A stretch of DNA of 34,661 bases from an uncultured Bacteriovoracaceae bacterium (GTDB lineage: Bacteria > Bdellovibrionota > Bacteriovoracia > Bacteriovoracales > Bacteriovoracaceae): assembly GCA_913053615.1 (NCBI GenBank), contig CAJXHA010000005.1:1-34661 (forward strand), written 5' to 3'. Position 1 is the first letter of the stretch. Each line of letters starts with the position of its first letter. The notes beneath the pieces were generated by a model. That model saw only the letters and a list, made by a program, of their open reading frames with translations. It did not search any database and was not told the origin of the DNA. The position numbers and the translations under genes are program-made. Positions 14,031-28,160 of the stretch are shown one piece after another.

Positions 14031-14275
14031 AAACAAAGGCGGGTTAAAAACCCGCCTAAGGTTCTAAAAGCAAGGATTACTAAATAGGCTTGCTATTAGT
14101 AAAATCAACACCTTCAGAACTAGTTTGAATCTCTCTTCCATTGAGAATCTCCTAAGAGATTAGGTCTTCATTGACCTGAAAAGAGATCCATATTAAAATT
14201 TGTTATGCGTCTAAGGTTTTAAACCAGGACTAGTTTGAATCAAAAACCCACCCAACTATTCCGGTGGGTTTTTTT
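14031..14275 (+). ncRNA. Structured repeat RNA, copy A
   Basis: The first of four related units. It begins AAACAAAGG and folds a 5' hairpin GGCGGGTT/AACCCGCC (14038-14056). After this come CCTAAGGTTCTAAAAGC, a hairpin TCTCTT/AAGAGA (14131-14158) and a hairpin AGGTC/GACCT (14162-14177), and it ends in the terminator AACCCACC/GGTGGGTT plus T-run. The word ACTAGTTTGAATC occurs twice (14119-14131 and 14229-14241), the second time just before the terminator. No ORF is present. The stems differ in sequence from the other copies but stay paired, which argues for a conserved RNA. It starts 8 bp after the pseudogene stop. Confidence 0.8.
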
Positions 14276-14310
14276 ATTTCTGCAAGTTCATGCCAACTTA
14301 TAAATTTGTA
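14276..14310. repeat. 35-bp segment repeated after RNA copies A and B
   Basis: The sequence after the terminator of copy A (ATTTCTGCAAGTTCATGCCAA and on) is repeated almost exactly after the terminator of copy B at 15558-15592. Copies C and D lack it. A and B therefore arose by duplication of a segment longer than the RNA itself. Confidence 0.7.
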
Positions 14311-15142
14311 AATATCTAAAACTTAAGGCCTTCCAATAAAAGGTATTTAAAAACCTAACAAATCACTTAAATTTTTTTATTAGATGAGCTCTAGCGAATT
14401 ATTATATTTCCAAAAAATCCAAAAGCGCCCGATGATAGTTCTACTGTTTGCGAGTAGCGACGCAAGCTTAATACCTCGAGGGTGCAAGTCCCTCCCACAG
14501 GGCACCTAGTGAATGTGGAAATCAGGATTCAAGATTTTTTTGGTGACAAAAATTTCTAAGAGCGAATCTGGAATAATTTTACCAATCACCCAATTGGTAA
14601 AGTTTATGGACCAGCAGGTTGTAGCAATAGTGAACCATGCAAATCCAAAGACCCCTTATAAGTTCATGGGACCTTATAAGACTAACGGGAAAAGCCGAGC
14701 TGACTGGCAAACTCAGTGAAGGCCAAAGTTATCAGTGAAGAATTAGGTACACGCAGCTGATAAGTTTCCTTAGGATGAAGAGTGGATGACATGTTGGGAA
14801 GGGTAGTTAAGTGAAAGCGCGGAACAACTTAAAGACACGTTTTTGACAATCATCAAGAACAAGTTTTAAAAAACTGACCAAAGTTTTTAAAATGTTTTTT
14901 AAGTTGGGCGGATGAGGTCGACTAAGCGTTAATCAAATGTGCAACATAACACATTTGAGAGCGAGGACCTCAGAGGGTTGTTAGGACTTTGTTGACATGA
15001 AGTCTTGGCTTAAAACATGTGCATCTCTGTCAATAGACTGCACTTAAGCTTTAAGTATAACTAGGCCGAATTAATTTGTATGTTTGATTGAACTTAAGAA
15101 TTAAAGAAAGTCTGGGAAATCTAAAGTGGATGTTTACCTTGG

Positions 15143-15175
15143 CAACCGTACTAGAGAAAATCTAACGTGCGGATC
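15143..15175 (+). ncRNA. Group II domain V-like hairpin
   Basis: A 33-nt element: CCGTAC (15146) pairs with GTGCGG (15167), followed by a two-base AC bulge (15165-15166), an upper stem TAGA/TCTA and a GAAAA loop. Canonical domain V has 34 nt, a 2-nt bulge at this point and a GNRA loop. The triad position reads AAC instead of AGC, and the outermost pairs are partly broken, so catalytic competence is doubtful. The next stem GGAAATGG/CCATTTCC (15199-15229) carries an extra A on its 3' side at 15220, 9 nt from its end, as in domain VI. Confidence 0.4.
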
Positions 15176-15275
15176 CGAAAACGAAAGATTTGGTTTTTGG
15201 AAATGGGAGCAACTAGCTTATCCATTTCCAGGCCTCATCTTAAAAAAAGAAACGATACCAACATCGTAATGCTTT

Positions 15276-15306
15276 AAAACCACCTCTAACGGGGTGGTTT
15301 TTTTTT
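15276..15306 (+). terminator. Intrinsic terminator after the large RNA
   Basis: AACCACC pairs with GGTGGTT, followed by a run of nine or more T. A smaller hairpin ACGAT/ATCGT precedes it at 15252-15267. RNA copy B begins only 6 bp after the T-run. Confidence 0.9.
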
Positions 15307-15312
15307 GCTAAA

Positions 15313-15557
15313 AAACAAAGGTGGGATTGCTCCCACCTAAGTTCTAAAAGCATGGCTTACAAATAAGAAAACTCATCAGTAAAATCAATGCTTTTAAGAA
15401 GTTTAGCAATATCTCTTCCATGAGACCTCCCAAGAAGAGAGGAGTCTTCATTGACCCCAAAAGAGATATAGTGCTAATATATGATTAACCTAAGTTCTAA
15501 AAAGTATTTAGGAAGTTTAGCATTACAAAACCCACCCAAATTCTGGTGGGTTTTTTT
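15313..15557 (+). ncRNA. Structured repeat RNA, copy B
   Basis: 245 nt, the same plan as copy A: 5' hairpin GGTGGGA/TCCCACC, CCTAAGTTCTAAAAGCA pairing with TGCTTTTA before word 1, hairpin CTCTTC/GAAGAG (15412-15439), and terminator AACCCACC/GGTGGGTT. The copy-specific word GAAGTTTAGCA occurs at 15398-15408 and 15512-15522. The segment GAGATATAGTGCTAA (15463-15477) can pair with word 1 (GAGATAT/ATATCTC plus GCTAA/TTAGC) or with word 2 (TAGTGCTAA/TTAGCATTA with one G-U). Both cannot form together. The unit starts 6 bp after the previous terminator, so it has no promoter of its own immediately upstream. Confidence 0.82.
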
Positions 15558-15650
15558 ATTTCTGCAAGTTCATGCCAAGTTACAAATCTATAAGTACTCA
15601 TTATTACGGCCATAATTTATCAACCAATTATCTAGGCCTTAGCTGCCACA

Positions 15651-15737
15651 AAATATTAACACTTTCTTAAGAATATCCGATAAGTTTACTAGGTAAATAG
15701 CTGATTTTTAGTGGCTATTTGTAAAGTGTTAATATTT
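15651..15737 (+). promoter_or_regulatory. 15-bp inverted repeat with nested hairpin upstream of Big2/PA14 gene
   Basis: AAATATTAACACTTT (15651-15665) is the exact reverse complement of AAAGTGTTAATATTT (15723-15737). Inside it AAATAGC (15695-15701) pairs with GCTATTT (15714-15720). The outer stem ends 47 bp before the lipoprotein ATG. It could be a structured 5' leader, or a pair of binding sites for a dimeric regulator that loops the DNA. No T-run follows. Confidence 0.6.
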
Positions 15738-15784
15738 ACTTAGCTTTAAAGCAATATAGTAATAGAAGAAGGTTTAGCACTATT

Positions 15785-17950
15785 ATGTTTAAGCATTTGA
15801 TTATCATATTTTTGAGTGCAATTTTTTTAGTCTCATGTGCTAATGAATCTGAATCTTCGTCTAGTTTATTAAAAGGCCCTAATCAATCTGAGAGTAGTAC
15901 TAGTGAAGTAAGTCTAGTTTCTATTAATCTCTTTGCAAGTGCTACTAGCTTTCAGGTGGGAAGTGAAGTTAGTCTCTATGCCATTGGTTATTATGATAAT
16001 GGCAGCCAAGGTAATATTTCAAATATCGTGAGCTTTACTAGTTCTGATGAAGCTATTGTTTCTATCTCTGGTACTAGTGCAAGTGCAGTGAGTGCTGGTG
16101 TGGTACAAGTGAGTGCAAGTCTAGATGGAGTTAGTAAATCAATTACACTGGCTCCCTTTTCTGCAACACTTACTGGTATTGAATTAAATCTCAACGCCCT
16201 TACTTTACCTAGTGATGGTTCTAGTCAGCTAATTGTTTATGGTGTGTATGATAATAACCAAACTCAAGTGGTAACTAGTTTGGCCACACTCTCTTCTCAG
16301 GATGGTGCAGTGGCGAGTATTGATAGTGATGGATTAATAAGTGCCGTCGCCAGTGGAACTACAACTTTAGATATTTCATATAATGGCTTTAGTACGACTT
16401 TAAATGTGGAAGTGACCAGTGCTACTATCGATTCCATTCAAGTGACGCCAGCTCTTGGAAATAAGCCCATCGGTGTGGATCAACAATTTAGTGCTACCGC
16501 TAGTCTCAGTGATGGTACTACTTTAGATGTGACAAATTCAGTTAGCTGGAGTTCTTCTAATACAGATCGTTTAACTATTAATAGTGCTGGTTATGCCGAG
16601 ATGGTAAGTGCAGGCAGTGTAGAAGTGAGTGCGACTTTAGATGGTGCGAGTAGTACCGTTGATTTTGTGGTGCTAGCTAAAACCCTTGATTCCATATCAC
16701 TTACTATTGAAAGTCCAAGTATAGGTGTAGATGTATTAAGTGATGTTACTTGTCTTGCAAATTACTCTGATGGCTCAAGTGAAGATATAAGTACTGAAGT
16801 AAGTCTTAGTTTAAGTGATACGAGCATCGCTCTTATTAATCAAAGTGATAACATTAGTCTGCGCTCACTGGCCATTGGAAGTACAGATCTAACTGCTAGC
16901 TTTGGAGGAATGAGTGCAAGTGCAACTCTGACTGTAACTGGAGCCAGTCTTGTGAGTATTGAAGTGCAAACAGATAATTCATTACTTTCAGCTGGAGTGA
17001 ATGCTTATTTTAAGGCCATGGGAACTTATGATGATGCCAGTGTAGTTGATATAACTAATAATGTTAGCTGGTCGTTAGATAATGCAAGCTATGGAAGTAT
17101 TTCTAATAGTCCAAGTAATAAAGGACTTTATAATAATACCTTTAATGGTGGAGCAACAGCGAATCTAACAATTAGCGCAACACTAGGAGCGATAAATGGC
17201 AGCTTAGAAATTGTCTTAGCACCTGGAACAATTAATAGCATTTCCATTACTCCTTCTAGTGTGAGTACAACGAGCTTTAATAATTTAAATTACCGTGCCT
17301 ATGCTCACTTTGATGATGGTGCCAGTGTTGAGATCACAGATATTGCAACATGGACTAGCTCCGATACAAGTATTGCGATTATTAGTAATGATCAAAGCGA
17401 TGCTGGATTACTGGCAACATTGGGCGAAGGGAGTGCAAATATTCAGGCCAATTATAAGGGCAATAGCTCAAACATTTCAGTTCTCACTGTCGATGATGGA
17501 GCACCTGAGGAGATCCCAGAAGAGGGGGATGGATTACTTGCAAGTTATTATTCTGGAAATAATTTTAATACCCTTAAAGGTCAACGTATCGATGGGCAGA
17601 TTAATTTTAACTGGGCAACCGGACAAGCACCACTTGGTGTTGGAGATAATTTCAGTGTTCGCTGGACGGGACAGATTAAGGGTAAATTTACAGGAGATTG
17701 CCAAGTGTCTTCTCGCTCTGATGATGGTTTTAGAATGTGGATTGGTGGCAATTCCATTATTGATGTTTGGTTCCCTCACGCTCCAAGATGGGATCATAAT
17801 TACGCCGTACCTTTTGTGGAAGGTGAAAAGCAAACCATCACAGTTGAATTCTTTGAAAATGGTGGGCATGCAGTGGCCGAGCTTTACTGGCAATGTCCAG
17901 GAGATGCGACTTTAGATCCTATTCCAACCGAGTATTTATTCTCTGAATAA
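15785..17950 (+). CDS. Surface lipoprotein with Big2-type repeats and C-terminal PA14 domain
   Basis: 721 aa. The lipobox LVSC makes Cys18 the lipidated residue (MFKHLIIIFLSAIFLVSC). After a Ser-rich linker there are about six Ig-like bacterial (Big_2) domains of 85-90 residues. Each has a pattern such as SIQVTP ... GVDQQFSATASLSDGTTLDVTNSVSWSSSN ... SAGSVEVSATLDG. The last ~140 residues form a PA14 domain (GLLASYYSGNNF ... RWTGQIKG ... SRSDDGFRMWIGG ... ENGGHAVAELYWQCPG), which binds carbohydrates in many proteins. It is likely an extended outer-surface stalk with a glycan-binding tip. AGAAGG is upstream; the start region overlaps a 10-nt match to RNA copy B. Ser/Thr use is very high, written largely with AGT and ACT codons. 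Confidence 0.9.
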   Translation: MFKHLIIIFLSAIFLVSCANESESSSSLLKGPNQSESSTSEVSLVSINLFASATSFQVGSEVSLYAIGYYDNGSQGNISNIVSFTSSDEAIVSISGTSASAVSAGVVQVSASLDGVSKSITLAPFSATLTGIELNLNALTLPSDGSSQLIVYGVYDNNQTQVVTSLATLSSQDGAVASIDSDGLISAVASGTTTLDISYNGFSTTLNVEVTSATIDSIQVTPALGNKPIGVDQQFSATASLSDGTTLDVTNSVSWSSSNTDRLTINSAGYAEMVSAGSVEVSATLDGASSTVDFVVLAKTLDSISLTIESPSIGVDVLSDVTCLANYSDGSSEDISTEVSLSLSDTSIALINQSDNISLRSLAIGSTDLTASFGGMSASATLTVTGASLVSIEVQTDNSLLSAGVNAYFKAMGTYDDASVVDITNNVSWSLDNASYGSISNSPSNKGLYNNTFNGGATANLTISATLGAINGSLEIVLAPGTINSISITPSSVSTTSFNNLNYRAYAHFDDGASVEITDIATWTSSDTSIAIISNDQSDAGLLATLGEGSANIQANYKGNSSNISVLTVDDGAPEEIPEEGDGLLASYYSGNNFNTLKGQRIDGQINFNWATGQAPLGVGDNFSVRWTGQIKGKFTGDCQVSSRSDDGFRMWIGGNSIIDVWFPHAPRWDHNYAVPFVEGEKQTITVEFFENGGHAVAELYWQCPGDATLDPIPTEYLFSE

Positions 17951-18056
17951 AAAGTGTCAAAAGTTTTAACAGGGCTAAAATTATTTCAAAACTAGCTTAT
18001 TCTCAGACAAGTTCATAGTAAGATTTCCTCAATTGAGTTTAAAAAAAAGGATTGCT

Positions 18057-18500
18057 ATGAAGTTTTTGTCAGCACTTGTGCTATTAGGTAGTTTAAATGT
18101 TTATGCTAATACAATTGAAATTGAGACCAGTATTCGCTGTGATAAGTATCAATTTGGAATTGATAATCTTAATGAAAAATTACCAGAGGACAGACAAATT
18201 ACTTTAAACTGTGAAGGCACTGAAAAGTCGGCCCTTGGTGGATTAGTGACTTATGGAGCGAAAAGCGTTGTTAGTATTTCAACTTCACTTCCTCTATGTG
18301 AAACATCTGAGCAGGTTTATTCAAAGGTTCATACCTTTGGAAAAGGCGGAGCATTTGTTGGCTATGATATGAACGGAGTACACCCAGTCATTGAACTCTT
18401 AGAGGCCAATGGAATCGTTGTAGACGCTCTTAGATACGGTACTGGCACAGGCATGCTAGGACATGAGGTACACGGAATTCAATTTCCATACTGTGAATAA
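18057..18500 (+). CDS. Small secreted protein, unknown
   Basis: 147 aa from the ATG at 18057, preceded by AAAAGGA; the in-frame extension upstream is not needed because the signal peptide MKFLSALVLLGSLNVYA starts here. The mature part has four cysteines (RCDKYQF, LNCEGTE, PLCETSE, FPYCE at the very end), probably disulfide-bonded, and a Gly-rich C-terminal half (YGTGTGMLGHEVHGIQFPYC). No family was recognised. It stands between the Big2/PA14 gene and another small secreted-protein gene. Confidence 0.78.
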   Translation: MKFLSALVLLGSLNVYANTIEIETSIRCDKYQFGIDNLNEKLPEDRQITLNCEGTEKSALGGLVTYGAKSVVSISTSLPLCETSEQVYSKVHTFGKGGAFVGYDMNGVHPVIELLEANGIVVDALRYGTGTGMLGHEVHGIQFPYCE

Positions 18501-18550
18501 AATACCATATTAACATAGGATAATTATTTAATTTTAAAATCACCTTATAA

Positions 18551-18577
18551 GCTCCTAGAACGAATATTTCTAGGAGC
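18551..18577 (+). promoter_or_regulatory. Shine-Dalgarno-sequestering hairpin
   Basis: GCTCCTAGAA (18551-18560) pairs perfectly with TTCTAGGAGC (18568-18577), loop CGAATAT. The 3' arm contains the AGGAG ribosome-binding site; six C separate it from the ATG at 18583. Folding would block initiation. There is no T-run, so it is not a terminator. Confidence 0.7.
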
Positions 18578-18582
18578 CCCCC

Positions 18583-19080
18583 ATGTCTAAAAATTTAGTA
18601 TTTAAATTATTACTCTTACTTTCAATGTCTTTTTCAAGTGCCTTTGCAATGGATCTTACTCAAGATGCTGAGCTTGATGATGTTGCTTATATTCAATCAG
18701 TGCTTAAGGCGACCGAGTTAGAGCTAACTAAAAATGAATTAGCTTGTAAGCTTTCACTTTCTAATAATCCACAGGCAAGTGCTTATAAAATTTCTTCTAA
18801 AGCTCTCTTATTAAATCTTATTTCAAAATATGTAGACGAGACTAGTCTTATTCAATTTTCTAATGAGGGGTATATTGAAGAGATTACTATTGAAATAGAA
18901 AGTGAAAAATACTTATATAAAATTCAAATGAATACTGAGTATGATTATCGCAAGATTAATTCCATCTCGATAACTAAGTATGAGCTTATTAATACCAAGT
19001 ATAATCTTGGAACCTTAGAAAAACCACACTTTCAAGATGATGTAAGTCTGATCTTTCATTCAATTAAAATATGTGAATAA
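18583..19080 (+). CDS. Small secreted protein, unknown
   Basis: 165 aa with signal peptide MSKNLVFKLLLLLSMSFSSAFA. The mature protein is acidic and lacks recognised motifs; two cysteines are visible (NELACKLSLS and the terminal KICE). Alternating hydrophobic strands (IEEITIEIESEKYLYKIQMN) suggest a small beta-sheet domain. Its ribosome-binding site is inside a perfect 10-bp hairpin, so translation is probably controlled by an RNA structure, a protein or temperature. Confidence 0.78.
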   Translation: MSKNLVFKLLLLLSMSFSSAFAMDLTQDAELDDVAYIQSVLKATELELTKNELACKLSLSNNPQASAYKISSKALLLNLISKYVDETSLIQFSNEGYIEEITIEIESEKYLYKIQMNTEYDYRKINSISITKYELINTKYNLGTLEKPHFQDDVSLIFHSIKICE

Positions 19081-19143
19081 AGCTAAGCTCTGTCTAGTTA
19101 ATATAAACCATATATATCATTCAAATAAGGTCATTCCCATGGT

Positions 19144-19172
19144 GTAATACTCCTAAATAAAAGGAGTATTAC
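19144..19172 (+). promoter_or_regulatory. Shine-Dalgarno-sequestering hairpin before SDR gene
   Basis: GTAATACTCCT (19144-19154) pairs perfectly with AGGAGTATTAC (19162-19172), loop AAATAAA. The ATG follows directly, and T19143 can extend the stem to the A of the ATG. The AGGAG is fully paired. The arrangement matches the hairpin before the preceding gene, with a different sequence. Confidence 0.75.
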
Positions 19173-19862
19173 ATGAATGATAAAGTATTATTAATTACAG
19201 GTGCTTCAAGTGGGATTGGAGAGTCTAGTGCCTTTGCTGCTGCCAAGGCCGGATATAAAGTTGCCCTTTTGGCCAGAAGTGAAGATAAGCTAAATAAAAT
19301 TGCTAATGCCATTAATAGTGAATTTGGAAATGATACTGCCCTTGCTATTAAAACCGATGTGACTCAATTAGAAGAACTCGGCAAGGCCATTCACACAACT
19401 ATAGAAAAATTTGGAAAATTAGATGCAGTCTTTGCCAATGCAGGTAAGGGATTAAATAAAGCAGGCACAGAAAACGGTGATCCTAGAGAGTGGGATGAGA
19501 TGATTGATCTCAATGTAAAATCACTTCTATGGACGGCCAAGATGACCTTGCCACATCTAAGAGAAACTTTGGGACACTTTATCATCACTAGTTCAGTGGC
19601 GGGAAAAATCTATTTACCAGGATCCGTTTATGGAGCATCAAAGTGGTTTGCTTCAGGCTTTGGCCATAACCTTGCTCGCGAAATGAAAGAGTGGGGCGGA
19701 CGCTGCACAATCATCTGTCCTGGCATGGTGGATACACCCTTTTTTGATGAACCAAAACCTGATAAACTTAAACCAAGCGATATCGCAGATGCACTAGTTT
19801 TCGCTCTCACTGCACCGGCCAGAAGCACTGTGCGTGAAATTGAAGTGATGCCGACGAATTGA
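19173..19862 (+). CDS. Short-chain dehydrogenase/reductase (SDR)
   Basis: 229 aa, a classical SDR. The N-terminal Rossmann motif is TGASSGIG (residues 8-15). Arg36/Ser37 after the second strand (ALLARSEDKL) favour NADP(H). NAG (FANAGKG) and the catalytic Ser of ITSSVAGK with the YGASKW motif (Y-x-x-x-K) are present. CPGMVDTPFF follows. The substrate is not predictable; the closest general type is the YdfG/serine 3-dehydrogenase-like group of cytoplasmic oxidoreductases. The length is slightly short but complete. Translation starts directly after a stem that buries its ribosome-binding site. RNA copy C begins 38 bp after the stop. Confidence 0.9.
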   Translation: MNDKVLLITGASSGIGESSAFAAAKAGYKVALLARSEDKLNKIANAINSEFGNDTALAIKTDVTQLEELGKAIHTTIEKFGKLDAVFANAGKGLNKAGTENGDPREWDEMIDLNVKSLLWTAKMTLPHLRETLGHFIITSSVAGKIYLPGSVYGASKWFASGFGHNLAREMKEWGGRCTIICPGMVDTPFFDEPKPDKLKPSDIADALVFALTAPARSTVREIEVMPTN

Positions 19863-19900
19863 GTGGAAGAATTATTTAAAGCGTGCTTTTAATATCTAAA

Positions 19901-20146
19901 AAACAAAGGTGGGAAGTTTCCCTCCCACCTAAGTCCTAAAAGCAAGGTCTACAAAACAACATCGTTGCCAGTAAAATCAATGCTTTTAGAAATGCATACA
20001 ATACCTCTTCCATGAGACCTCCAAGAAGAGTTGAGTCATCATTGACCCTAAAAGAGATATTGTGCTAAAATTAAATACGCCTAAGTTCTAAAGCTTTAGG
20101 ATTGCATACAATATTAAACCCACCCAAAATTCCGGTGGGTTTTTTT
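19901..20146 (+). ncRNA. Structured repeat RNA, copy C
   Basis: 246 nt with the same plan: 5' hairpin GGTGGGA/TCCCACC with a longer loop, CTAAAAGCA pairing with TGCTTTTAG, hairpin CTCTTC/GAAGAG, and terminator AACCCACC/GGTGGGTT. The copy-specific word TGCATACAATA occurs at 19993-20003 and 20103-20113; with the conserved flank the internal repeat is about 20 nt long. The segment GATATTGTGC (20055-20064) can pair with either word (ATATTGT/ACAATAT plus GC). Its first ~75 nt are almost identical to copy D. Confidence 0.82.
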
Positions 20147-20154
20147 ATGCTTAA

Positions 20155-20407
20155 AAACAAAGGTGGGAAGTTTCCCTCCCACCTAAGTCCTAAAAGCAAG
20201 GTCTACAAAACAACACCGTTGCCAGTAAGATCAATACTTTTAAGATAGTCACAAATACCTCATCCATGAGTGGACCTCCTCTTGAGGCTTTGAGTCACTA
20301 ATTGACTCAAAATAAGGTAGCGTGATAGTATTTTTTACGCCTAAGTCTTAAAGGTTTTAGGATAGTCACAATTATTAAACCCACCCAATTTTCCGGTGGG
20401 TTTTTTT
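20155..20407 (+). ncRNA. Structured repeat RNA, copy D
   Basis: 253 nt, beginning 8 bp after the T-run of copy C, so there is no room for a separate promoter between them. It keeps the 5' hairpin and terminator. The central hairpins have changed sequence but still pair: CTCA/TGAG and TTTGAGTC/GACTCAAA (20289-20312). The copy-specific word GATAGTCACAA occurs at 20244-20254 and 20361-20371. Pairing of the words with the middle segment is weaker than in B and C (GTGA/TCAC plus a few pairs). Confidence 0.8.
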
Positions 20408-20482
20408 ATGTCTAAAAAGCCATATGCAAGAAGTCTGACAAATTACAGAGACATAAGCCCCTAAAATCAAAGAAATAGCCAC

Positions 20483-20511
20483 TTTCCCAAAACAAATAAT
20501 TTTGCTATACT
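20483..20511 (+). promoter_or_regulatory. Probable sigma-70 promoter of ssrA
   Basis: TATACT at 20506-20511 is a good -10 element. A weak -35 (TTTCCC, 20483-20488) lies 17 bp upstream. Initiation would be ~8-10 nt later, just before the mature tmRNA 5' end at 20529. Confidence 0.55.
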
Positions 20512-20620
20512 ACAAGCTCGCAATTCATGGGGGTGCACTGGTTTCGACAGGGCCGTAGATGAATTGAGTGCGTGTCTAGGTTGATCGACCGGCCTAGTAA
20601 AAAGTCGATCAAATGTATTC

Positions 20621-20653
20621 GGAAACGAAACAGAATTTGCAATGGCTGCATAA
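20621..20653 (+). CDS. ssrA: tmRNA proteolysis-tag frame
   Basis: GGA is the resume codon; the frame reads GNETEFAMAA then TAA. The encoded tag (with the charged Ala in front) ends in AMAA instead of the common ALAA, but keeps the small hydrophobic C-terminus recognised by ClpXP-type proteases. Confidence 0.9.
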   Translation, partial: GNETEFAMAA

Positions 20654-20886
20654 TCCAACTGATTATTGCGCATGCTGCGGGGCCTACACCAATAACAAAA
20701 AGTAGGTAAAGACCTCATGAGGGGAGGTCCGTAAACTAAGCTCTCGCTGCTAGCCGGGACCGCAGTTTAAACTTTCACCGGGTTTTGTGAATTTGACAAG
20801 ATTCTCACAGGCGTCACTTCCTCTAATGTGACTACACACGTAGGACTCTCTCTCGGAAGCGGTTTTGGACGTCGGTTCGATTCCGA

Positions 20887-20897
20887 CCACCTCCACC
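20887..20897 (+). repeat. Attachment core 1 (3' end of ssrA)
   Basis: CCACCTCCACC at the tmRNA 3' end. The same core occurs at 22251, 25091 and 29160. It forms the left boundary of the island. The base after it is C here and A in the other three copies. Confidence 0.8.
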
Positions 20898-20938
20898 CGA
20901 GGATATTAGCTTTTAAAGTTTGTATGTTGGGGTGGGGG

Positions 20939-22195
20939 TTATTCCCTTGAATTGCGATTCTTATATTCTTCTATTCTTTTTTTGATTGCTCTGTTTGATT
21001 CATTTTTAAAACTGTCTAGATAAAAATCTTTTGGCATTCCAAAGTAAACCTCTTCAGGAGTCCTTTCGTTTAAATAACTGTGTGGAATAATATTATTATA
21101 TTGTTCTATGTAATACCGAGTATGCCTATGAAGATCACCGATTGATTTAATTTTAATCTTTGATAAGTAATTGCTCTTGAGCGTACGAAAGAATATTTCT
21201 ATTTTTGAGTTCGAATAATAGGTATTATGTTTTGAAATTAGGGCTTTAATTTCCTTTTCTTTGAGATAAGTATAAACATATCTGTTTAGGTTTTCTGAGC
21301 CAGCATCCATCATGATTTCGATTGGGTTAATAAATGAATTAATTGATTTTGAAATAAGAGATCTAGTATGTTTTCCATCCCATTGCTCAATGATATGCCA
21401 ATTGATTACATATCTTGAATGGTTATCCAAAATTACTTGAAGGAAATATTTTTTATTTCTTACTTTTATTTCAGAGATATCTATATGCCAGAGTTGATTG
21501 GGATGTTCTCTTTCAATACCAATAGGATAGCTTTTGGAATATTTTACTTTTAGATTAGGTCTTTTCATTTGATAAAGCTTTGCATATTTTCTCCAAGTAG
21601 CTGGAGATGAAAAAAGTTCTCCATTTCTCTTGGCAATGCTACAAAGTGCATGTAGAGGTAAATGAAAAAGATTCGGATCTGTGTAATACTTCTTTATGAC
21701 TAAAAATTCTTGATATGTTATAGCTCTACTCGAAGATTGATAATATTTTTTAGGTTCATTGTGAAACTTTTCATAGTCTACTATTTCTTTGTTCCACTTT
21801 TTAAATCTAGAGAAGCTTATTGACAGGTCATCTAGGAGAGTTCTTAAGCTAGTTCTTTTTTTATGAGTATAAATTAATTCAATGATTCTTTTTCTCTTCT
21901 CATAATCTTGAACATGTTTTTTATCGAGGGATAGTTTGCAAACGTTTTGAATCATTTTTATTAATTTAATTCGATTTTTTAATTCTCTATTTTCTTCTTT
22001 ATATTTTTTGATAATTGATTTTAATTTTTGTATTTCAAGATTTTCATCAATTTTATTTGAATTTCCTAAATGGTATTTGGAATTTATCCAATATCTAGCA
22101 GTTGTTTCAGGAATTTTTAATTCTGGGAAAAGATTGACTTCTTTTGTCTTTGAAATAAGAACTTTTGCATAGTGTGGATACTTTTTATAACGCAT
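20939..22195 (-). CDS. DDE (rve) transposase
   Basis: 418 aa. The N-terminal half has a helix-turn-helix-like start (IPETTARYWINSKYHLG) and a coiled coil near residues 50-85. The integrase core (about 230-400) shows the DDE triad: D239 in WHIDIS, D297 in MMDAGSEN and E333 in SKIEIFFRTLKSNYL. The C-terminal YNNIIPHSYLNERTPEEVYFG segment is typical of IS3/IS481-type transposases. It is a full-length single frame. It fills the interval between attachment cores 1 and 2, ending 41 bp from the tmRNA 3' end and starting 55 bp from core 2. No clear terminal inverted repeats or short target duplication were found. It may be a solitary insertion sequence or the recombinase of the first cassette. Confidence 0.88.
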   Translation of the reverse strand: MRYKKYPHYAKVLISKTKEVNLFPELKIPETTARYWINSKYHLGNSNKIDENLEIQKLKSIIKKYKEENRELKNRIKLIKMIQNVCKLSLDKKHVQDYEKRKRIIELIYTHKKRTSLRTLLDDLSISFSRFKKWNKEIVDYEKFHNEPKKYYQSSSRAITYQEFLVIKKYYTDPNLFHLPLHALCSIAKRNGELFSSPATWRKYAKLYQMKRPNLKVKYSKSYPIGIEREHPNQLWHIDISEIKVRNKKYFLQVILDNHSRYVINWHIIEQWDGKHTRSLISKSINSFINPIEIMMDAGSENLNRYVYTYLKEKEIKALISKHNTYYSNSKIEIFFRTLKSNYLSKIKIKSIGDLHRHTRYYIEQYNNIIPHSYLNERTPEEVYFGMPKDFYLDSFKNESNRAIKKRIEEYKNRNSRE

Positions 22196-22250
22196 AGTTC
22201 ATTCAACTATCTCAATAACGAAATTTTGTCGAACATGGGTTCTTTTTCCG

Positions 22251-22262
22251 CCACCTCCACCA
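22251..22262 (+). repeat. Attachment core 2
   Basis: CCACCTCCACCA. The preceding GGGTTCTTTTTCCG resembles the tmRNA T-arm (GGTTCGATTCCG), so the copied segment is probably longer than the perfect core. Confidence 0.8.
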
Positions 22263-22354
22263 GTGGATGGAAAGATTTAAAAACTATGCAGCGATATATT
22301 CGCAAAGCAGGGGTAGATATTCGAGGAGTAACCGATGACTTAAACCTAATATAA
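22251..22354 (+). pseudogene. C-terminal fragment of a tyrosine recombinase (cassette 2)
   Basis: From the attachment core onward the frame reads TSTSGWKDLKTMQRYIRKAG and ends DDLNLI. In tyrosine recombinases the His/Trp residue stands nine positions before the nucleophilic Tyr; here W and Y have exactly that spacing (GWKDLKTMQRY). The catalytic Arg-Lys-His-Arg part that should precede it is absent; upstream sequence belongs to the transposase leader. Coding identity begins at the tmRNA-derived core, so the crossover point lies within the integrase gene. Confidence 0.75.
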
Positions 22355-22454
22355 TGACTCAGCTATTATTTCTTAGTTCATAAACAAAACTGAGTTTTAT
22401 GTTTTGATTTATTTATTTTATAATTGATTAAAAGCGTAAAAATATAGGTAATTT

Positions 22455-24122
22455 ATGGAAAGCAAGGTAATAAACGATTGGAGAATGTTTTTTTCTCTAG
22501 ATAAAAATACTGAGAAATTAGAGTCAGGGCAAATTTTAATAATACCAAGTGAAGACAAGTGGAATGATTTCAAACACAAAATACAAGTACGTGTTTATTT
22601 TAAAACCGAGAATAATGACTTATTTTCTTTCGAGTGTTTTTTTGCCTTTGTTCCTGAAACATCTAACGAAGTTGAAGAAGGTCTTAGATTTAGATTACAA
22701 GAATATCTAAAAAATACGAATTCTAAAAAAGATTTAATTTTAATTGATAATTTTGAAACGTTTATTACGATGTTGCCGACTATTGGAGATTACAGGAAGT
22801 TAGTTAAAGCAGTAACTCCTGTAGTCGCAAACTCTGTACTAAAGTCAATCTCTGATATGGTGTATTGGGAAGAACATCATCAAAAAACGGATGAATGGTT
22901 TATAAACGGGAAGAAATCATTAGTTTTTCGTGAAGCCTTTATGAGAAGTTCTGAAAGTTACTTTGCTTTCCATAGTGCTGGAGACATTTTAAAGGGCCTT
23001 GATTTTGAGAGTTTTGATGTAATATCAAAAGATTTGGATTTAAATTTTCAGTTAGACTCTTTTTCTAATCCTCATCAGATAAACTTTCGTTTTAGCCAAG
23101 ATGCCATCCTTCCTAAAAGAATAAATATTATGATTGGCAAAAATGGTTTAGGTAAAAGTCAGGCTTTAAACAAAATTGTACATTCTTTAGTTGGAAGACC
23201 AGACCATTTAAACAATTTACGAGACCCAAAAGGAAAAAGTCCTCGACCTCTTATAAATAGGCTTATAGCAATTGGAACTCCTGGAGAAGTTTTTAATACT
23301 TTTCCACGTCCTAGAGTAAAAAGGCCAAGGATAAAATATAAACTGCTTAATATGGCTAGGAATAGTAAAAGTCAGAATGCAGTTACAGGGGCGTCGTTTC
23401 AACAGCTTCTTAGAAGTGAAGATGTTATTGGTAATCGATTTCGGTTTGATATTTTCTATGATTCAGTTAGTAAGTGCTTGCCTGTTGATGACATTGTTAT
23501 TCCCATAGACGATTATGATGGACTTCCACCGTTCTATCCTCTTTCGGGATTTAAAGAAAGAAATTTAGGAGAACAGAAGAGACTTTTATTGTTGGGCGCT
23601 ATCAGTGAAAAAGCTGAACCCAAAATATTTAGAGATGGAACAATATATCCATTAAGCAGTGGTCAGCTTTCTTTCTTTAAAGTTGCATTACTAGCTTGTT
23701 TACACATTGAAAATGGTTCACTCGTTTTACTAGATGAGCCAGAAACTCATTTACATCCAAATCTAGTCTCAGATTTTATTTCATTGTTGAATACTTTGTT
23801 AAAATCGACCGGTTCTTATTCTATTATCGCAACTCATTCTGCCTATTTTGTTCGAGAAACATCAAGAGAACAAGTTCACGTTTTTAAGGAGATGCCTGAT
23901 AGGGGTATAAGTATAGTAAATCCTAGACTGAAGACATATGGGGCAAACATTGGAGATATTTCTCATTTTGTATTTGATGACAATATTGATGATAAACTAA
24001 CTGATAATATTTTAGAGAATATTCGTGATGAAAAAGGCAATATTGATTTCGACCTAGATTCACTCAAATCTGAATTATCAACAGAAGTATTGATGTCATT
24101 AAAACGAGAAATTAGCAGTTAA
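22455..24122 (+). CDS. ptuA: Septu-like defence ATPase PtuA
   Basis: 555 aa. After an ~210-residue N-terminal region without recognised motifs comes an ABC/SMC-like ATPase: Walker A GKNGLGKS (228-235), signature LSSGQ (400-404), Walker B LVLLDEPE (423-430), LHP D-loop region and switch His in IIATHSA (457-463). In Septu systems PtuA forms oligomers that hold the PtuB nuclease in check until phage infection. The gene lies 3 bp from the HNH gene, the diagnostic arrangement. The N-terminal region is long for PtuA, so this could be a subtype or a related ATPase-HNH pair. No reverse transcriptase is present, so it is not a retron effector. Confidence 0.82.
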   Translation: MESKVINDWRMFFSLDKNTEKLESGQILIIPSEDKWNDFKHKIQVRVYFKTENNDLFSFECFFAFVPETSNEVEEGLRFRLQEYLKNTNSKKDLILIDNFETFITMLPTIGDYRKLVKAVTPVVANSVLKSISDMVYWEEHHQKTDEWFINGKKSLVFREAFMRSSESYFAFHSAGDILKGLDFESFDVISKDLDLNFQLDSFSNPHQINFRFSQDAILPKRINIMIGKNGLGKSQALNKIVHSLVGRPDHLNNLRDPKGKSPRPLINRLIAIGTPGEVFNTFPRPRVKRPRIKYKLLNMARNSKSQNAVTGASFQQLLRSEDVIGNRFRFDIFYDSVSKCLPVDDIVIPIDDYDGLPPFYPLSGFKERNLGEQKRLLLLGAISEKAEPKIFRDGTIYPLSSGQLSFFKVALLACLHIENGSLVLLDEPETHLHPNLVSDFISLLNTLLKSTGSYSIIATHSAYFVRETSREQVHVFKEMPDRGISIVNPRLKTYGANIGDISHFVFDDNIDDKLTDNILENIRDEKGNIDFDLDSLKSELSTEVLMSLKREISS

Positions 24123-24125
24123 TAA

Positions 24126-24986
24126 ATGAAATCAGTAAACAGACCAAATATTGACGATATTCAATTACTAAAAGATTTATGTGGTAAAACACATATCAAG
24201 TGTCACCCATACCTTTCTCACGAGTACCTAATTATGCTTGCTCAATATCAGCAGTTTATAAATAATAATGGTGACCCTCACTTTTGTCCCCCTGTTCAGA
24301 TTAGTACAGACCTAGAGGATGCTCTAGAATATCATTATAAAAATCCACTGAAGAGTTTGAGTTTTATTCCTCAAATAAGATATGAAGTATCAACAAGTTG
24401 TTGCCCTATGTGTGGGAGTATCGGGACTGGGACTGTTGACCATTACTTACCTCAGTCAACCCATCCTGAGTTTACAATCCATTCAAGAAATCTAATTCCT
24501 TCATGTTTATGCAATTCAAAAAGAGGAAATGTGATTACTGGAGCAAATGCCAATGAAAGAATTATTCATCCATATTTTGATAATTTTTTAAATCAAAGGT
24601 TAATCACTTGTGAATTTTCTGGCGATTTATCTGCACCAGTCGTTAGACTGAGGCAATTAGTTGTAAATCAAACAGTTAATTTCCATATCAATAACGTTGT
24701 AGAAAAGACGAATATTCTAAACTGGTTAAGTGATAAGTGGGCCAGTCTTGTAAGGTCTCCCCAGGTAATGCTTCCCCATCTTCCAAGGGGAAGGCATGTA
24801 ACTGAGCAAGAGGTACAAAACTCATTTATTTCAACACGAGATGATAAAGATTTAGAGTTTGAGTCTTTCAATAATTGGTTCTCTATATTCTTTTCAGGTC
24901 TAGAAAATTCAAATGGAGTCGCAGCCTGGATTAGAGACATTCAAAATAGTCTAGTTACTAGAAGAATAGAAGAAGACGAGCAGTGA
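24126..24986 (+). CDS. ptuB: HNH nuclease PtuB of the Septu-like pair
   Basis: 286 aa. The HNH domain spans about 90-135: zinc-binding CPMCGSIG (93-96 CxxC), the catalytic DHYLPQS with His106, the middle Asn122 in SRNLIPSC, and a second Cys pair SCLCN. HNH enzymes cut DNA or RNA with a single metal. Expected role: the effector nuclease activated by PtuA during infection. The C-terminal ~120 residues are unassigned. The start is 3 bp after the ptuA stop. No promoter or terminator is visible between the two genes. Attachment core 3 follows 104 bp after the stop. Confidence 0.85.
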   Translation: MKSVNRPNIDDIQLLKDLCGKTHIKCHPYLSHEYLIMLAQYQQFINNNGDPHFCPPVQISTDLEDALEYHYKNPLKSLSFIPQIRYEVSTSCCPMCGSIGTGTVDHYLPQSTHPEFTIHSRNLIPSCLCNSKRGNVITGANANERIIHPYFDNFLNQRLITCEFSGDLSAPVVRLRQLVVNQTVNFHINNVVEKTNILNWLSDKWASLVRSPQVMLPHLPRGRHVTEQEVQNSFISTRDDKDLEFESFNNWFSIFFSGLENSNGVAAWIRDIQNSLVTRRIEEDEQ

Positions 24987-25090
24987 ATTGTTAATTCTTT
25001 GGATTTTAAAATTTAAAAAATTGTAATGTAGTGATTTGTAGTAATGACTTCATGCTATATCAATAATATTAAGGTGTTTGAAGATTCCCA

Positions 25091-25102
25091 CCACCTCCAC
25101 CA
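25091..25102 (+). repeat. Attachment core 3
   Basis: CCACCTCCACCA, preceded by GATTCCCA; the tmRNA has GATTCCGA at the same place, so 18 of 19 bases match the tmRNA 3' end. It separates the Septu cassette from the DarTG cassette. Confidence 0.85.
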
Positions 25103-25197
25103 GTGGTTGGAAGGATCTTAAAACTATGGCTCATTATATGCGTTTGTCTGGTATTGAAGAGAAGGGAGCGACTGAGGTCTTAGGATTTTTAAATTAA
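25091..25197 (+). pseudogene. C-terminal fragment of a tyrosine recombinase (cassette 3)
   Basis: The frame from the core reads TSTSGWKDLKTMAHYMRLSG and ends TEVLGFLN. It has the same start point and the same W-x8-Y spacing as the fragment at 22251, but the sequence beyond GWKDLKTM differs. This shows two related but distinct integrases cut at the identical place. The N-terminal part is missing. darT begins 33 bp later. Confidence 0.78.
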
Positions 25198-25230
25198 GAC
25201 AACTATTGTTTATTTTGATATAGGTTATTA

Positions 25231-25857
25231 ATGAAGTTGAGTGTACAAATAAAAGCAAAATACGAATTAGGTGATGTATTACACATGACGGATATTTCTA
25301 ATTTAGATTCAATATTTGCTTCTAAAGTTATCCTATCTAAGAATAAGCTAGCAGCTCAATCAAAAAGCTATTCTGATATTTCCAATGAATCTGTGCAATC
25401 CAATCGTTCTAGTAAACAAGTTTTAACTACAGCAACTGTTGTTCATGATTATGTACCTTTTTATTGGGGAAGAAAGACTCCTATGGTAGCAGCTTTACAA
25501 AGTAAAAATCAGGACTTAATCTTTCTTCAGTTTTCAACCGACTTACTTGATGATTATGACTGTGTGGTTTGTAATGGAAATGCAGCAACTTCAGACACAG
25601 TATTTAAAGAGTTTACTGGAATCACTGACCTAGACTTTTTAGATAGTAAGAGCATAAATACTGTTAAATACGCATCTGATGTGAATGTTAGAAAGGCAAA
25701 GCAGTCTGAATTACTTGTACATGATTTCATAGGTTTAGAGCATTTAAAATGCATTATCTGTTATGACGACAGTGTAAAATCTAGAATTGAAACACTTAAA
25801 ACTACACATGGAGTCAAATGTGCGGTATATATAAATCCAGGAGCGTACTATTTTTAG
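25231..25857 (+). CDS. darT: DarT-type DNA ADP-ribosyltransferase toxin
   Basis: 208 aa, the usual DarT length. Family features: the NAD-site start LHMTDISNLDSIFASKVI, the central DYVPFYWGRKTPM (74-85), and Glu160 in RKAKQSELLVHD at the place of the catalytic glutamate. DarT enzymes attach ADP-ribose to thymidine or guanosine bases in single-stranded DNA and block replication, acting against phage. The gene lies directly before a macro-domain gene, as in DarTG operons (2 bp between stop and start). A weak ATAGG site precedes the ATG. Confidence 0.9.
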   Translation: MKLSVQIKAKYELGDVLHMTDISNLDSIFASKVILSKNKLAAQSKSYSDISNESVQSNRSSKQVLTTATVVHDYVPFYWGRKTPMVAALQSKNQDLIFLQFSTDLLDDYDCVVCNGNAATSDTVFKEFTGITDLDFLDSKSINTVKYASDVNVRKAKQSELLVHDFIGLEHLKCIICYDDSVKSRIETLKTTHGVKCAVYINPGAYYF

Positions 25858-25859
25858 CT

Positions 25860-26390
25860 ATGATTACTTATAAAACTGGAAACATATTCAACTCATCTGC
25901 ACAGGTTATTACAAACACTGTTAATTGTGTTGGTGTTATGGGGAAAGGCCTTGCACTAGCTTATAAAAAGCAGTTCCCTGAAATGTTTGAAGACTATAAA
26001 GCTCGTTGCTCTGAAAACATGGTAAAGCCTGGAGTACCATATCTATGGGAAAATGATTCAGTTCAAATTTTAAACTTTCCTACTAAAAGACATTGGAAGC
26101 AAAACTCATTATTAAATGATATTGAAATGGGACTTAAGTACCTATCTGAGAATTATAGAGACTTGGGAATTTCTTCTCTTGCTCTTCCACCTTTAGGATG
26201 TGGACTTGGAGGACTTAATTGGGCCGATGTTAAAAATTTAATAAATAAATACCTAGGGCCACTAGAAGATTTAGATGTCTACGTTTATGAGAGTTCTGAA
26301 TCAAAATCAGAAACTCCTGATAAAGATAATCAGGCGTGGCAGAATAAGCAATCTAATGATGGGCTAGTTGCTCAACAGTCTCTTATCTAA
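25860..26390 (+). CDS. darG: Macro-domain antitoxin DarG, short form
   Basis: 176 aa from the ATG at 25860, two bases after the darT stop. The macro domain is complete: TNTVNCVGVMGKGLALAYKK near the start and ALPPLGCGLGGLNWADV near residue 120. It would remove ADP-ribose from DNA and so reverse DarT. Typical DarG has a further C-terminal domain of ~150-200 residues that binds DarT directly; here only ~25 hydrophilic residues follow the macro domain. The gene ends with a normal stop, followed by a terminator, so no extension is hidden in the next bases. It may be a natural macro-only antitoxin or a truncation. Confidence 0.88.
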   Translation: MITYKTGNIFNSSAQVITNTVNCVGVMGKGLALAYKKQFPEMFEDYKARCSENMVKPGVPYLWENDSVQILNFPTKRHWKQNSLLNDIEMGLKYLSENYRDLGISSLALPPLGCGLGGLNWADVKNLINKYLGPLEDLDVYVYESSESKSETPDKDNQAWQNKQSNDGLVAQQSLI

Positions 26391-26481
26391 AACCACTCTA
26401 TATTCATACTCTATAGACTTACTGTCTGAAAAAAGGCTAATAAGTGAAAAAGCACAGCTTAAATAATCTTTGATCGTTTTT

Positions 26482-26514
26482 AAAAAGAGACCACATTACT
26501 TGTGGTCTCTTTTT
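26482..26514. terminator. Bidirectional terminator between darG and GIY-YIG gene
   Basis: AAAAAGAGACCACA (26482-26495) is the exact reverse complement of TGTGGTCTCTTTTT (26501-26514), a 14-bp stem with loop TTACT and A/T-runs on both sides. It ends darTG (+) and the convergent GIY-YIG gene (-). Confidence 0.92.
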
Positions 26515-26520
26515 AAAAAT

Positions 26521-26952
26521 TTAGTATGAAGCATAAAGACTTCTAGTATCTCTTACTGTGAAGTCACTGTTTAATAATGCAGTTTCACCACTTAGCTTAA
26601 TGTTAACAGATCTAAAAGGGAAACTCGAAACATACTCAGTGTTTACAACAGGTTTATGTTTGTAAATTAAAGCAGCCTCTGCCCTAAAGCGATCGCTAAT
26701 AGGAGCAAAAGAAAAACATAGAATTTCACCATATTTAAGGTGTTTTTTCCATTCTCTTTCCTTTTCATGTCCTTGAATCCTATCTTTGGCATTTTCTGAT
26801 TCGCCAATATAGATAAGCTCTTTTAGGGATACAGTACCTGCACTTTGGTTATAGGTTGCCCTATAAACACAATAGATCCCGCTTTTAGCTGGAACTCCGC
26901 TTTTGTTAATTTCTCGCCAGTAACCTTCAAATTCTAACTTGATTGTGTCCAT
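26521..26952 (-). CDS. GIY-YIG domain protein, probable nuclease
   Basis: 143 aa. The motif is split as SGIYCVYRAT (22-31) and ELIYIGES (44-51), followed by a conserved-type Arg in AKDRIQGHEKE and a late Glu in RAEAALIYKHKPVVN, where the metal-binding glutamate of the domain is expected. It is a single-domain nuclease without a DNA-binding part. AAGGAGG precedes the ATG at 26952. It is divergent from the sigma-like operon and shares a 127-bp intergenic region full of dyads. The role is not known; a nuclease effector of the neighbouring operon is possible. Confidence 0.82.
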   Translation of the reverse strand: MDTIKLEFEGYWREINKSGVPAKSGIYCVYRATYNQSAGTVSLKELIYIGESENAKDRIQGHEKEREWKKHLKYGEILCFSFAPISDRFRAEAALIYKHKPVVNTEYVSSFPFRSVNIKLSGETALLNSDFTVRDTRSLYASY

Positions 26953-27000
26953 GTATTCCTCCTTAAAAGTAAATTGGACGTTATTATTCTCTACATACTA

Positions 27001-27056
27001 TTGCCGACGAGAAAAATTTTTTGCCGTCAAACGGCAAAAAAAATTATATAACGGCA
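27001..27056. promoter_or_regulatory. Operator cluster with overlapping promoter
   Basis: Four TGCCG/CGGCA sites occur at 27002, 27022, 27031 and 27051. The middle two form a perfect 11-bp dyad TTTTTTGCCGT-CAA-ACGGCAAAAAA (27017-27041). A rightward promoter fits inside: TTGCCG (27021) as -35, an 18-bp spacer, and TATATA (27045-27050) as -10. A protein bound to the dyad would block it. The dyad could also act as a terminator-like hairpin, but its location between divergent starts favours an operator. Confidence 0.65.
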
Positions 27057-27079
27057 TAAGAAATTGTAGGTTTATGTTA

Positions 27080-27766: not shown

Positions 27767-28160
27767 ATTAGATAAGCTGATTTCACTTGTAGAAGATGAT
27801 GGTATTGATTCCTCTGACTTGGAAATACCACAACTAGAAGAAAGATCTAATAATCTTACTAAAAGGGTTATGAACTTTATAAGTGAAAGGAAGGAGGAAC
27901 GTGAACTTCCATGGCTTAAAAGATCAAGAGAGAAAATAGATAAGTTTTCTAAGATAGGCGAAAGTGTGTCCATTTCAGTCGAAGAGGCTAAAAAATATAT
28001 AACTGATCTTTTGGCGGGAAAAGGAGACTTTGGGTCACAAAACTACGCTGCCCAATTTTTTAGAGAAAAAGACAGTGAAAAGCTTTCTGATGAAGAGATT
28101 TTAAGTTTTTATAGAGATTTAAAGATTTTAGAAGAATTAAGTAAAGAAGAGAAGAAATAA
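27753..28160 (+). CDS. Small acidic/basic helical protein, unknown
   Basis: 135 aa from the ATG at 27753, with GGAGG 6 nt upstream, inside the end of the sigma-like gene. It has no cysteines and no membrane segment and is almost entirely helical (KSELDKLISLVEDDG ... EEILSFYRDLKILEELSKEEKK). Position between a sigma-like protein and an IrrE-type protease makes it a candidate anti-sigma factor or protease substrate. This is inferred from context only. Confidence 0.75.
   Translation: MKKSELDKLISLVEDDGIDSSDLEIPQLEERSNNLTKRVMNFISERKEERELPWLKRSREKIDKFSKIGESVSISVEEAKKYITDLLAGKGDFGSQNYAAQFFREKDSEKLSDEEILSFYRDLKILEELSKEEKK

Follow-up and report, generated by a model that had tools for sequence, protein, structure and literature searches.

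Four units within a 34,661-nt stretch of DNA from an uncultured Bacteriovoracaceae bacterium (the whole stretch is referred to below as the window) each contain a short sequence word twice, and the question they raise is why the two occurrences agree within a unit when the words of different units differ. The pairs are ACTAGTTTGAATC in unit A (positions 14119 and 14229), GAAGTTTAGCA in unit B (15398 and 15512), TGCATACAATA in unit C (19993 and 20103) and GATAGTCACAA in unit D (20244 and 20361), all as given in the preliminary description, which was also right that their spacing is nearly constant (110, 114, 110 and 117 nt, respectively) and that the scaffold around them is otherwise conserved (alignable, with a mean column identity of 76%). 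Repeats of this length appeared in 0 (A), 14 (B), 4 (C) and 10 (D) of 3000 dinucleotide-preserving shuffles of the downstream segment, and the four pairs together are therefore not due to chance. Word A has no further occurrence in the 3.47-Mb genome, and word C has three additional exact matches elsewhere in it, as chance predicts for an 11-mer.

The two words belong to different strands. On the minus strand, each of the four units has an ORF for a 25-aa hydrophobic peptide with a Shine-Dalgarno (SD) sequence, an ATG start and its own terminator, and word 1 lies inside this ORF. On the plus strand, a promoter-like pair of boxes is found between words 1 and 2 in all four units, and the short RNA predicted to start there comprises word 2 and a terminator. 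The features are as follows.

14037..14057, minus strand: unit A, terminator of the toxin-like gene (hairpin plus TTGTTTTT)
14064..14141, minus strand: unit A, peptide (toxin-like) ORF, MEERFKLVLKVLILLIASLFSNPCF, with SD tAGGAGattctca-ATG
14119..14131, minus strand: unit A, word 1, putative antitoxin target, toxin codons 4-8
14162..14177, minus strand: unit A, covarying 5'UTR hairpin of the toxin mRNA, AGGTC-TTCATT-GACCT (plus-strand letters)
14171..14199, plus strand: unit A, putative antitoxin sRNA promoter, TTGACC-17-TAAAAT
14206..14275, plus strand: unit A, predicted antitoxin sRNA up to its intrinsic terminator (start placed from the -10 box)
14229..14241, plus strand: unit A, word 2, pairing address in the sRNA
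15319..15338, minus strand: unit B, toxin terminator
15344..15421, minus strand: unit B, peptide (toxin-like) ORF, MEEILLNFLKALILLMSFLICKPCF
15398..15408, minus strand: unit B, word 1, codons 5-8
15441..15458, minus strand: unit B, covarying 5'UTR hairpin of the toxin mRNA
15451..15480, plus strand: unit B, putative sRNA promoter, TTGACC-18-TAATAT, TG extension
15487..15557, plus strand: unit B, predicted antitoxin sRNA including its terminator (15527-15554), predicted start
15512..15522, plus strand: unit B, word 2
19907..19930, minus strand: unit C, toxin terminator
19936..20013, minus strand: unit C, peptide (toxin-like) ORF, MEEVLYAFLKALILLATMLFCRPCF
19993..20003, minus strand: unit C, word 1, codons 4-7
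20033..20048, minus strand: unit C, covarying 5'UTR hairpin of the toxin mRNA
20042..20071, plus strand: unit C, putative sRNA promoter, TTGACC-18-TAAAAT, TG extension
20078..20145, plus strand: unit C, predicted antitoxin sRNA including its terminator, predicted start
20103..20113, plus strand: unit C, word 2
20161..20184, minus strand: unit D, toxin terminator
20190..20267, minus strand: unit D, peptide (toxin-like) ORF, MDEVFVTILKVLILLATVLFCRPCF
20244..20254, minus strand: unit D, word 1, codons 5-8
20290..20310, minus strand: unit D, covarying 5'UTR hairpin of the toxin mRNA, TTGAGTCACTAATTGACTCAA
20302..20331, plus strand: unit D, putative sRNA promoter, TTGACT-18-TAGTAT, TG extension
20338..20409, plus strand: unit D, predicted antitoxin sRNA including its terminator, predicted start
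20361..20371, plus strand: unit D, word 2
Toxin mRNA hairpin, sequence: GGTCAATGANGACC

This arrangement very probably represents a back-to-back gene pair, one gene coding for a tiny, likely membrane-damaging peptide and the other for a small RNA, the two forming a divergently arranged type I toxin-antitoxin locus. Since word 1 occupies approximately codons 4-8 of the peptide gene, word 2 makes the small RNA antisense to the peptide's own mRNA, and two words that read the same on the plus strand would be complementary to each other in the two transcripts. Three general features of type I systems are present: a gene for a small hydrophobic peptide that has signals for translation, an adjacent small RNA gene complementary to the peptide mRNA, and a complementarity that is kept as RNA pairing. 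In the window units, a search of the minus strand detected no consensus promoter for the toxin. Rfam covariance models reached threshold only for tmRNA when run against the window, and the units match no Rfam family. A reading of each unit as one structured RNA of 240 nt was discarded, as the strong folds (z about -5 to -6) owe their stability to elements of two separate genes: a terminator in each, the hairpin of the 5'UTR and the helix at the start region.

Model searches recovered approximately 50 units from 22 genomes, every one of them within the window's own family, the Bacteriovoracaceae, with up to eight per genome. Their peptide ORFs specify 24-32 aa, of which roughly 58-77% are hydrophobic residues, and have an SD, an ATG and their own terminator; ORF, SD and word occur together even in units with only weak model scores (1e-6 to 8e-3). 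Two matches lay outside the family, G295 and G234 (E 0.005); G295 has neither a peptide ORF nor a word and was treated as a chance match. An early BLASTn match inside a coding region (L012) was likewise due to chance, while another (L011) was real. A search of phages, plasmids and viral contigs for the toxin retrieved nothing, and a search for related loci through the protein of the neighbouring Ig-like gene gave nothing useful. Decayed toxin copies and apparent orphan antitoxins occur among the units.

The same word is present twice in all but one of the approximately 50 units with an intact peptide gene, and the words differ between units, which bears out the proposal that the word is a specificity element. 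The longest exact run is mostly 9-19 nt, and about 8 nt in a few units where it is broken by single differences. The lone exception among the units whose ORF is intact comes from G026 (contigs C21/C10). It was obtained by joining two contig ends with 96 nt in common and may be chimeric, with assembly as the possible cause. Between a small RNA and its own toxin, the longest word match averages 12.6 nt, versus 5.7 nt for cross pairs, and in 2000 random sRNA-toxin pairings the mean never exceeded 6.8; for a second pairing site, the own and cross values are 8.8 and 6.0. The own duplex is the most stable within the genome for 4/4 pairs in the window, 5/5 in G026, 5/6 in G054 and 5/8 rows in G012; the toxin N-termini of G012 are near-identical, and three of its eight antitoxins are predicted to pair at least equally well with a sister toxin. 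We read the repeated word as a private pairing code through which each small RNA would single out its own peptide's message from all others.

How the words diverge indicates what has been conserved. Among the 24 transitions that distinguish word 1 from word 2, 22 leave a G-U pair in place (12 A>G and 10 C>T) and two lose the pair (G>A 2, T>C 0), an asymmetry that is a strand-specific sign of RNA-RNA pairing. When units are compared in pairs at synonymous codons, word 2 follows word 1 in 303 of 335 cases, and in G014 a single C/U difference between the two words represents a wobble intermediate. The identity of the words had been attributed to selection or gene conversion; selection stands, but the differences preserve pairing and not DNA identity, which argues against conversion. 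Direct repeats at a near-constant spacing could also arise at the DNA level without any RNA function, by target-site duplication, recombination or gene conversion. However, the scaffold is conserved outside the repeats as well as between them, the repeats differ between paralogues, and a DNA process is not expected to leave strand-asymmetric, wobble-compatible differences, which makes this origin extremely improbable.

The same data bear on the idea, put forward in the preliminary description, of a single programmable or addressable RNA that carries the word twice, which would be guided by both copies to outside targets. Words that are identical within units and variable between them would suit such an RNA, but a promoter lies between them, and the small RNA contains word 2 alone, word 1 being part of a conserved ORF of the opposite strand. 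The differences between the words obey the wobble rule of an sRNA-mRNA duplex, and word A has no other genomic match. The conserved words also track the toxin, and the matched word is gone from the units with a broken toxin (G029_1 and G026_7). With word 1 in a peptide gene and no sign of aiming at phage or prey, a guide RNA of this kind is very improbable. Both the minus-strand ORF containing word 1 and the promoter between the words had been overlooked in that description.

Upstream of the toxin start codon, the 5'UTR hairpin shows 24 double-sided changes, versus 7.1 in shuffles, and many toxin mRNAs have a 5'UTR that could fold back onto their own start region. This start-region helix scores 17.8 for own and 14.1 for cross combinations, and random pairings reach at most 15.6. 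Folding pairs word 1 with the AAGAGATA region, as would be seen in an attenuator-like switch in which words 1 and 2 compete for an intervening 'antiword'; but on the plus strand a unit's antiword pairs no better with its own words than with those of other units, and the segment is better explained as toxin 5'UTR folding onto the start region, so that there is very little to recommend such a switch.

In the type I reading, the minus strand would give an mRNA that has the covarying hairpin and an SD and specifies a hydrophobic peptide of 24-32 aa, probably active at the membrane, and the promoter between the words would give an RNA of about 65-75 nt with a 5' hairpin, the word in single-stranded form and a terminator. 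The word of this RNA would pair with the peptide mRNA at codons ~2-8, and the duplex may block initiation, become exposed to RNase III, or both. A weaker second contact, between the 5' part of the sRNA and the mRNA at the peptide stop codon and terminator, could add to the pairing. Given the fold-back of the 5'UTR, free toxin message is probably partly self-silenced, and as co-resident copies have different words, the pairs should be largely orthogonal.

Toxicity is predicted from sequence, and comparison of 14 peptides with Pfam and NCBIfam gave no family above cut-off, as might be expected if the product were a small membrane peptide with, for example, a regulatory or signalling role, placed under the same antisense-RNA control. 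This alternative is unlikely, as genomes contain multiple copies that have diverged and are each accompanied by a private antisense RNA, the 24-32 aa peptides have a single-helix hydrophobic composition, and the 5'UTR is self-folding; decayed toxins and apparent orphan antitoxins also speak against it. Such multicopy hydrophobic peptides with private antisense RNAs, self-folding 5'UTRs and decayed or orphan copies are the usual picture for type I loci. One peptide group (MLKxLKxLELIILILKLL) presumably bears a general resemblance to ZorO.

The units very probably constitute a family, not filed before, within a known class of bacterial switches that act through a self-toxin. Searches of the open-access literature for type I systems retrieved no account of one from Bdellovibrio or Bacteriovorax, and the units would add a lineage to the known distribution of such systems. 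On balance we favour a family-wide class in which the recognition address lies inside the toxin coding sequence, toxin residues 4-8 being hypervariable because their codons serve as a barcode for the antitoxin, which would allow arrays of mutually orthogonal pairs in one genome. Paralogous type I pairs need a way to avoid cross-talk; here, about 50 natural pairs show sRNA-mRNA specificity diverging in step, and the evolution of orthogonal antisense pairs becomes directly testable.

Among known type I systems, Ibs/Sib and Ldr/Rdl are multicopy and chromosomal, and resemble the present units in that one genome encodes several tiny, hydrophobic, paralogous peptides and a separate antisense RNA for each of them. 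Sib, however, lies opposite ibs and covers its coding region (PMC4147584) with long, continuous complementarity, whereas the antitoxin here lies beside the toxin and has only a word in common with it. Fst/RNA II (par of pAD1) is among the closest mechanisms, as it pairs across direct repeats at the toxin start, makes a second contact at the terminator, and has a toxin mRNA that hides its own SD (PMC7472228). The Fst genes converge on a common bidirectional terminator, whereas the units here have repeats but diverge and have separate terminators; unlike the start-spanning Fst repeats, theirs fall in codons ~4-8 and vary between paralogues, and none of the 14 peptides matched Fst or Ldr in Pfam or NCBIfam.

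Also among the closest are ZorO/OrzO, TisB/IstR-1, ShoB/OhsC and DinQ/AgrB of E. coli, which are likewise divergent pairs of a small hydrophobic toxin and a trans-like sRNA with one short complementary stretch. The target specificity of OrzO and OrzP stems from a short variable region, and OrzO pairs about 73-91 nt ahead of the start of zorO (PMC3919570). OrzO matches over 18 nt (PMC3919570), and the exact word matches here, at 8-12 nt, fall short of this, a point against the type I reading unless the wobble pairs on either side and the second site are included. The divergent E. coli antitoxins pair in a long 5'UTR, without overlapping the initiation site or coding sequence (PMC4147584), whereas in the present units the predicted pairing is right after the start codon, at codons ~2-8, with a second site at the toxin 3' end. 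What is new with respect to the closest known mechanisms is that, in a divergent locus, the predicted pairing falls within the toxin's coding sequence.

The four pairs of short repeated words that the preliminary description placed in units A to D all lie exactly at the positions claimed for them. The unit scaffold has a mean column identity of 76%, the four units have no further strong copies elsewhere in the 3.47-Mb draft genome, and repeats as long were found in 0 (A), 14 (B), 4 (C) and 10 (D) of 3000 shuffles each. The minus strand of each unit carries a Shine-Dalgarno (SD) sequence, an ATG and a hydrophobic 25-codon ORF, and word 1 falls within codons 4–8 of this ORF. What had been read as the 5' hairpin of a single RNA is actually the intrinsic terminator of the minus-strand peptide gene. 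All four units have a sigma-70-like promoter in the middle, between the words; it consists of TTGACC or TTGACT, a spacer of 17–18 nt and a -10 box, and in three units a TG stands ahead of that box. A consensus scan found no promoter for the putative toxin gene.

Peptide genes and plus-strand promoters of the four window units
14057-14037, minus strand: terminator of the unit A peptide gene, encoding MEERFKLVLKVLILLIASLFSNPCF
14171-14199, plus strand: unit A promoter (scan)
15338-15319, minus strand: terminator of the unit B peptide gene, encoding MEEILLNFLKALILLMSFLICKPCF
15451-15480, plus strand: unit B promoter (scan)
19930-19907, minus strand: terminator of the unit C peptide gene, encoding MEEVLYAFLKALILLATMLFCRPCF
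20042-20071, plus strand: unit C promoter (scan)
20184-20161, minus strand: terminator of the unit D peptide gene, encoding MDEVFVTILKVLILLATVLFCRPCF
20302-20331, plus strand: unit D promoter (scan)

The whole promoter scan returned 30 sites where shuffles would give 20.9. A lone match therefore weighs little, and the case rests on the same position in every unit and on conservation of both boxes across homologues. With start sites inferred from the promoter boxes, the mid-unit promoter would give a short RNA (sRNA) in which a small hairpin is followed by word 2 and then the terminator. Word 2 would thus lie in this RNA as an antisense match to the word-1 stretch of the peptide mRNA. Judged from sequence, the unit layout is that of a type I toxin-antitoxin system, in which repression would proceed through an initiation block or RNase III cleavage.

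Homologous units were collected with successive search models. The first, built after one blastn homologue, matched additional units in four related genomes (G026, G029, G034 and G038), and the second added ten more (E-values 2e-6 to 8e-3); in all ten, a hydrophobic ORF is present and the word recurs identically or nearly identically. The third was searched against 369 genomes of the phylum and 124 of the family. The final set numbers about 50 units from 22 genomes, each a member of the window's own family, and several of these genomes are drafts with contig ends falling at the repeats. The word match is lost in G029_1, where the peptide gene is broken (MEQVKPLLMTISPISPKLKR, not hydrophobic), and in G026_7, where it is truncated; the sole intact-ORF unit without a match is a join that we made of G026 contig ends sharing 96 nt. 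Two apparent orphan antitoxin RNAs, L172 (G007:C6:20001-20182) and L190 (G005:C13:18997-19159), belong to the MLKxLKxLE group by their -10 box, word and terminator and have no adjoining toxin ORF.

At least three groups can be told apart among the peptides (MEExxxxxLKxLILL..., MEDxLLxLELxIxLLxLLxIL... and MLKxLKxLELIILILKLLTTxL...), and none matched Pfam or NCBIfam above cut-off. In group 1, residues 4–8 are among the most variable (entropy 2.1–2.9 bits) and residues 13–15 are invariant. Residues 16–17 and 20–22 vary about as much as residues 4–8, so that reading the N-terminus as a 'barcode' is suggestive, not proven.

Predicted pairing is largely specific to the unit. When the word region of the sRNA is compared with codons 1–14, the longest match averages 12.6 nt for the unit's own mRNA and 5.7 nt for others; none of 2000 random pairings had a mean above 6.8. 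A second match lies between the 5' part of the sRNA and the mRNA region around the stop codon and terminator of the peptide gene; its mean length is 8.8 nt (own) versus 6.0, with a largest random mean of 6.8. The two sites are collinear in antiparallel order, making a two-site contact between sRNA and mRNA possible. The own toxin gave the best predicted duplex for 4/4 antitoxins in the window, 5/5 in G026, 5/6 in G054 and 5/8 in G012, the last a genome in which toxin N-termini are nearly the same and the words therefore constrained by the protein. If the mRNA carries word 1 as its complement and the sRNA carries word 2, differences of type A>G or C>T (word 1 given first) keep a G-U pair, and those of type G>A or T>C break the pair; the former number 12 and 10, the latter 2 and 0 (one-sided sign test, about 2e-5). 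If differences shared by related units are counted a single time, the tally is about 18 to 2 (roughly 2e-4); the units are not fully independent. At synonymous codons of the MLKxLKxLE group, word 2 tracks word 1 in 303 of 335 pairwise, non-independent differences. By these comparative measures, what is maintained between the words is RNA pairing.

Upstream of the SD, the toxin mRNA has a hairpin, GGTC-NTCATT-GACC in plus-strand reading, in which 90.8% of cells are paired, with 24 double-sided changes (7.1 in shuffles) and a covariation score of 0.54 (0.16), far lower when partners are slid. It belongs to the toxin mRNA, since it is also present in another peptide subfamily lacking the displaced sRNA word. 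A helix between part of the 5'UTR and the first codons, overlapping the sRNA target, can form in group-1 units (15 bp in C, for example); this pairing is weak in the MLKxLKxLE group. Such modelled folding suggests that the toxin message may be self-silenced, a feature known from other type I systems (PMC4147584, PMC7472228). A sister group of peptides (e.g., MEEMIRVLTLFILLLQLAVIIRMS and MEDFIRVLTLVTLILQLIVVVLEMTK) has the same hairpin and SD without a displaced word, at loci L195, L196, L199-L206, L208, L210, L211, L214 and L217 of genomes G050, G027, G097, G022, G115, G044, G120, G117, G086, G098, G105, G053 and G087. In several of them a TGnTAnnnT-like box stands on the 3' side of the toxin, which suggests a fully overlapping antisense RNA as their antitoxin instead, and some are in tandem arrays.

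Between units A and B, an ORF-less stretch of ~820 nt after a terminator (14420-15250) resembles a group II intron RNA by eye, with a GCGCCC start, a GGGTGCAAGTCCCT motif, a domain-V-like hairpin near 15150 and a long final hairpin; it had no match to Rfam group II families at E<=5. Between units B and C (15785-17950) is a gene for a secreted protein that combines bacterial Ig-like (Big_2) repeats with a PA14 domain at its C-terminus. In three genera the tmRNA gene is immediately preceded, on its own strand, by a unit (19900-20900, L044 and L116: window C/D, a decayed copy in G029, and G026_5), which suggests a preferred or ancestral location just ahead of ssrA. ARAGORN gives the tmRNA (20529-20898) an unusually short tag peptide, GTAV*, possibly a mis-called tag frame. 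Downstream (20939-28943) are an IS-type integrase/transposase and then a defence island with a PtuA/PDC-M01A-like ATPase and PDC-M01B-like partner, DarT and DarG, and a capP-like metallopeptidase.

In the Fst/RNA II system, oppositely transcribed direct repeats hide the toxin start and the genes converge on a shared terminator (PMC7472228). The present units likewise have direct repeats at the toxin start, transcribed in opposite directions, but their genes are divergent. ZorO/OrzO-type loci are divergent and owe their specificity to a short variable region, although pairing there is far upstream in the 5'UTR, outside the coding sequence (PMC3919570, PMC4147584), whereas the present loci would pair by a start-site word inside it. 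As predicted here, these loci have divergent genes and would pair through a start-site word as well as a second contact on the 3' side.
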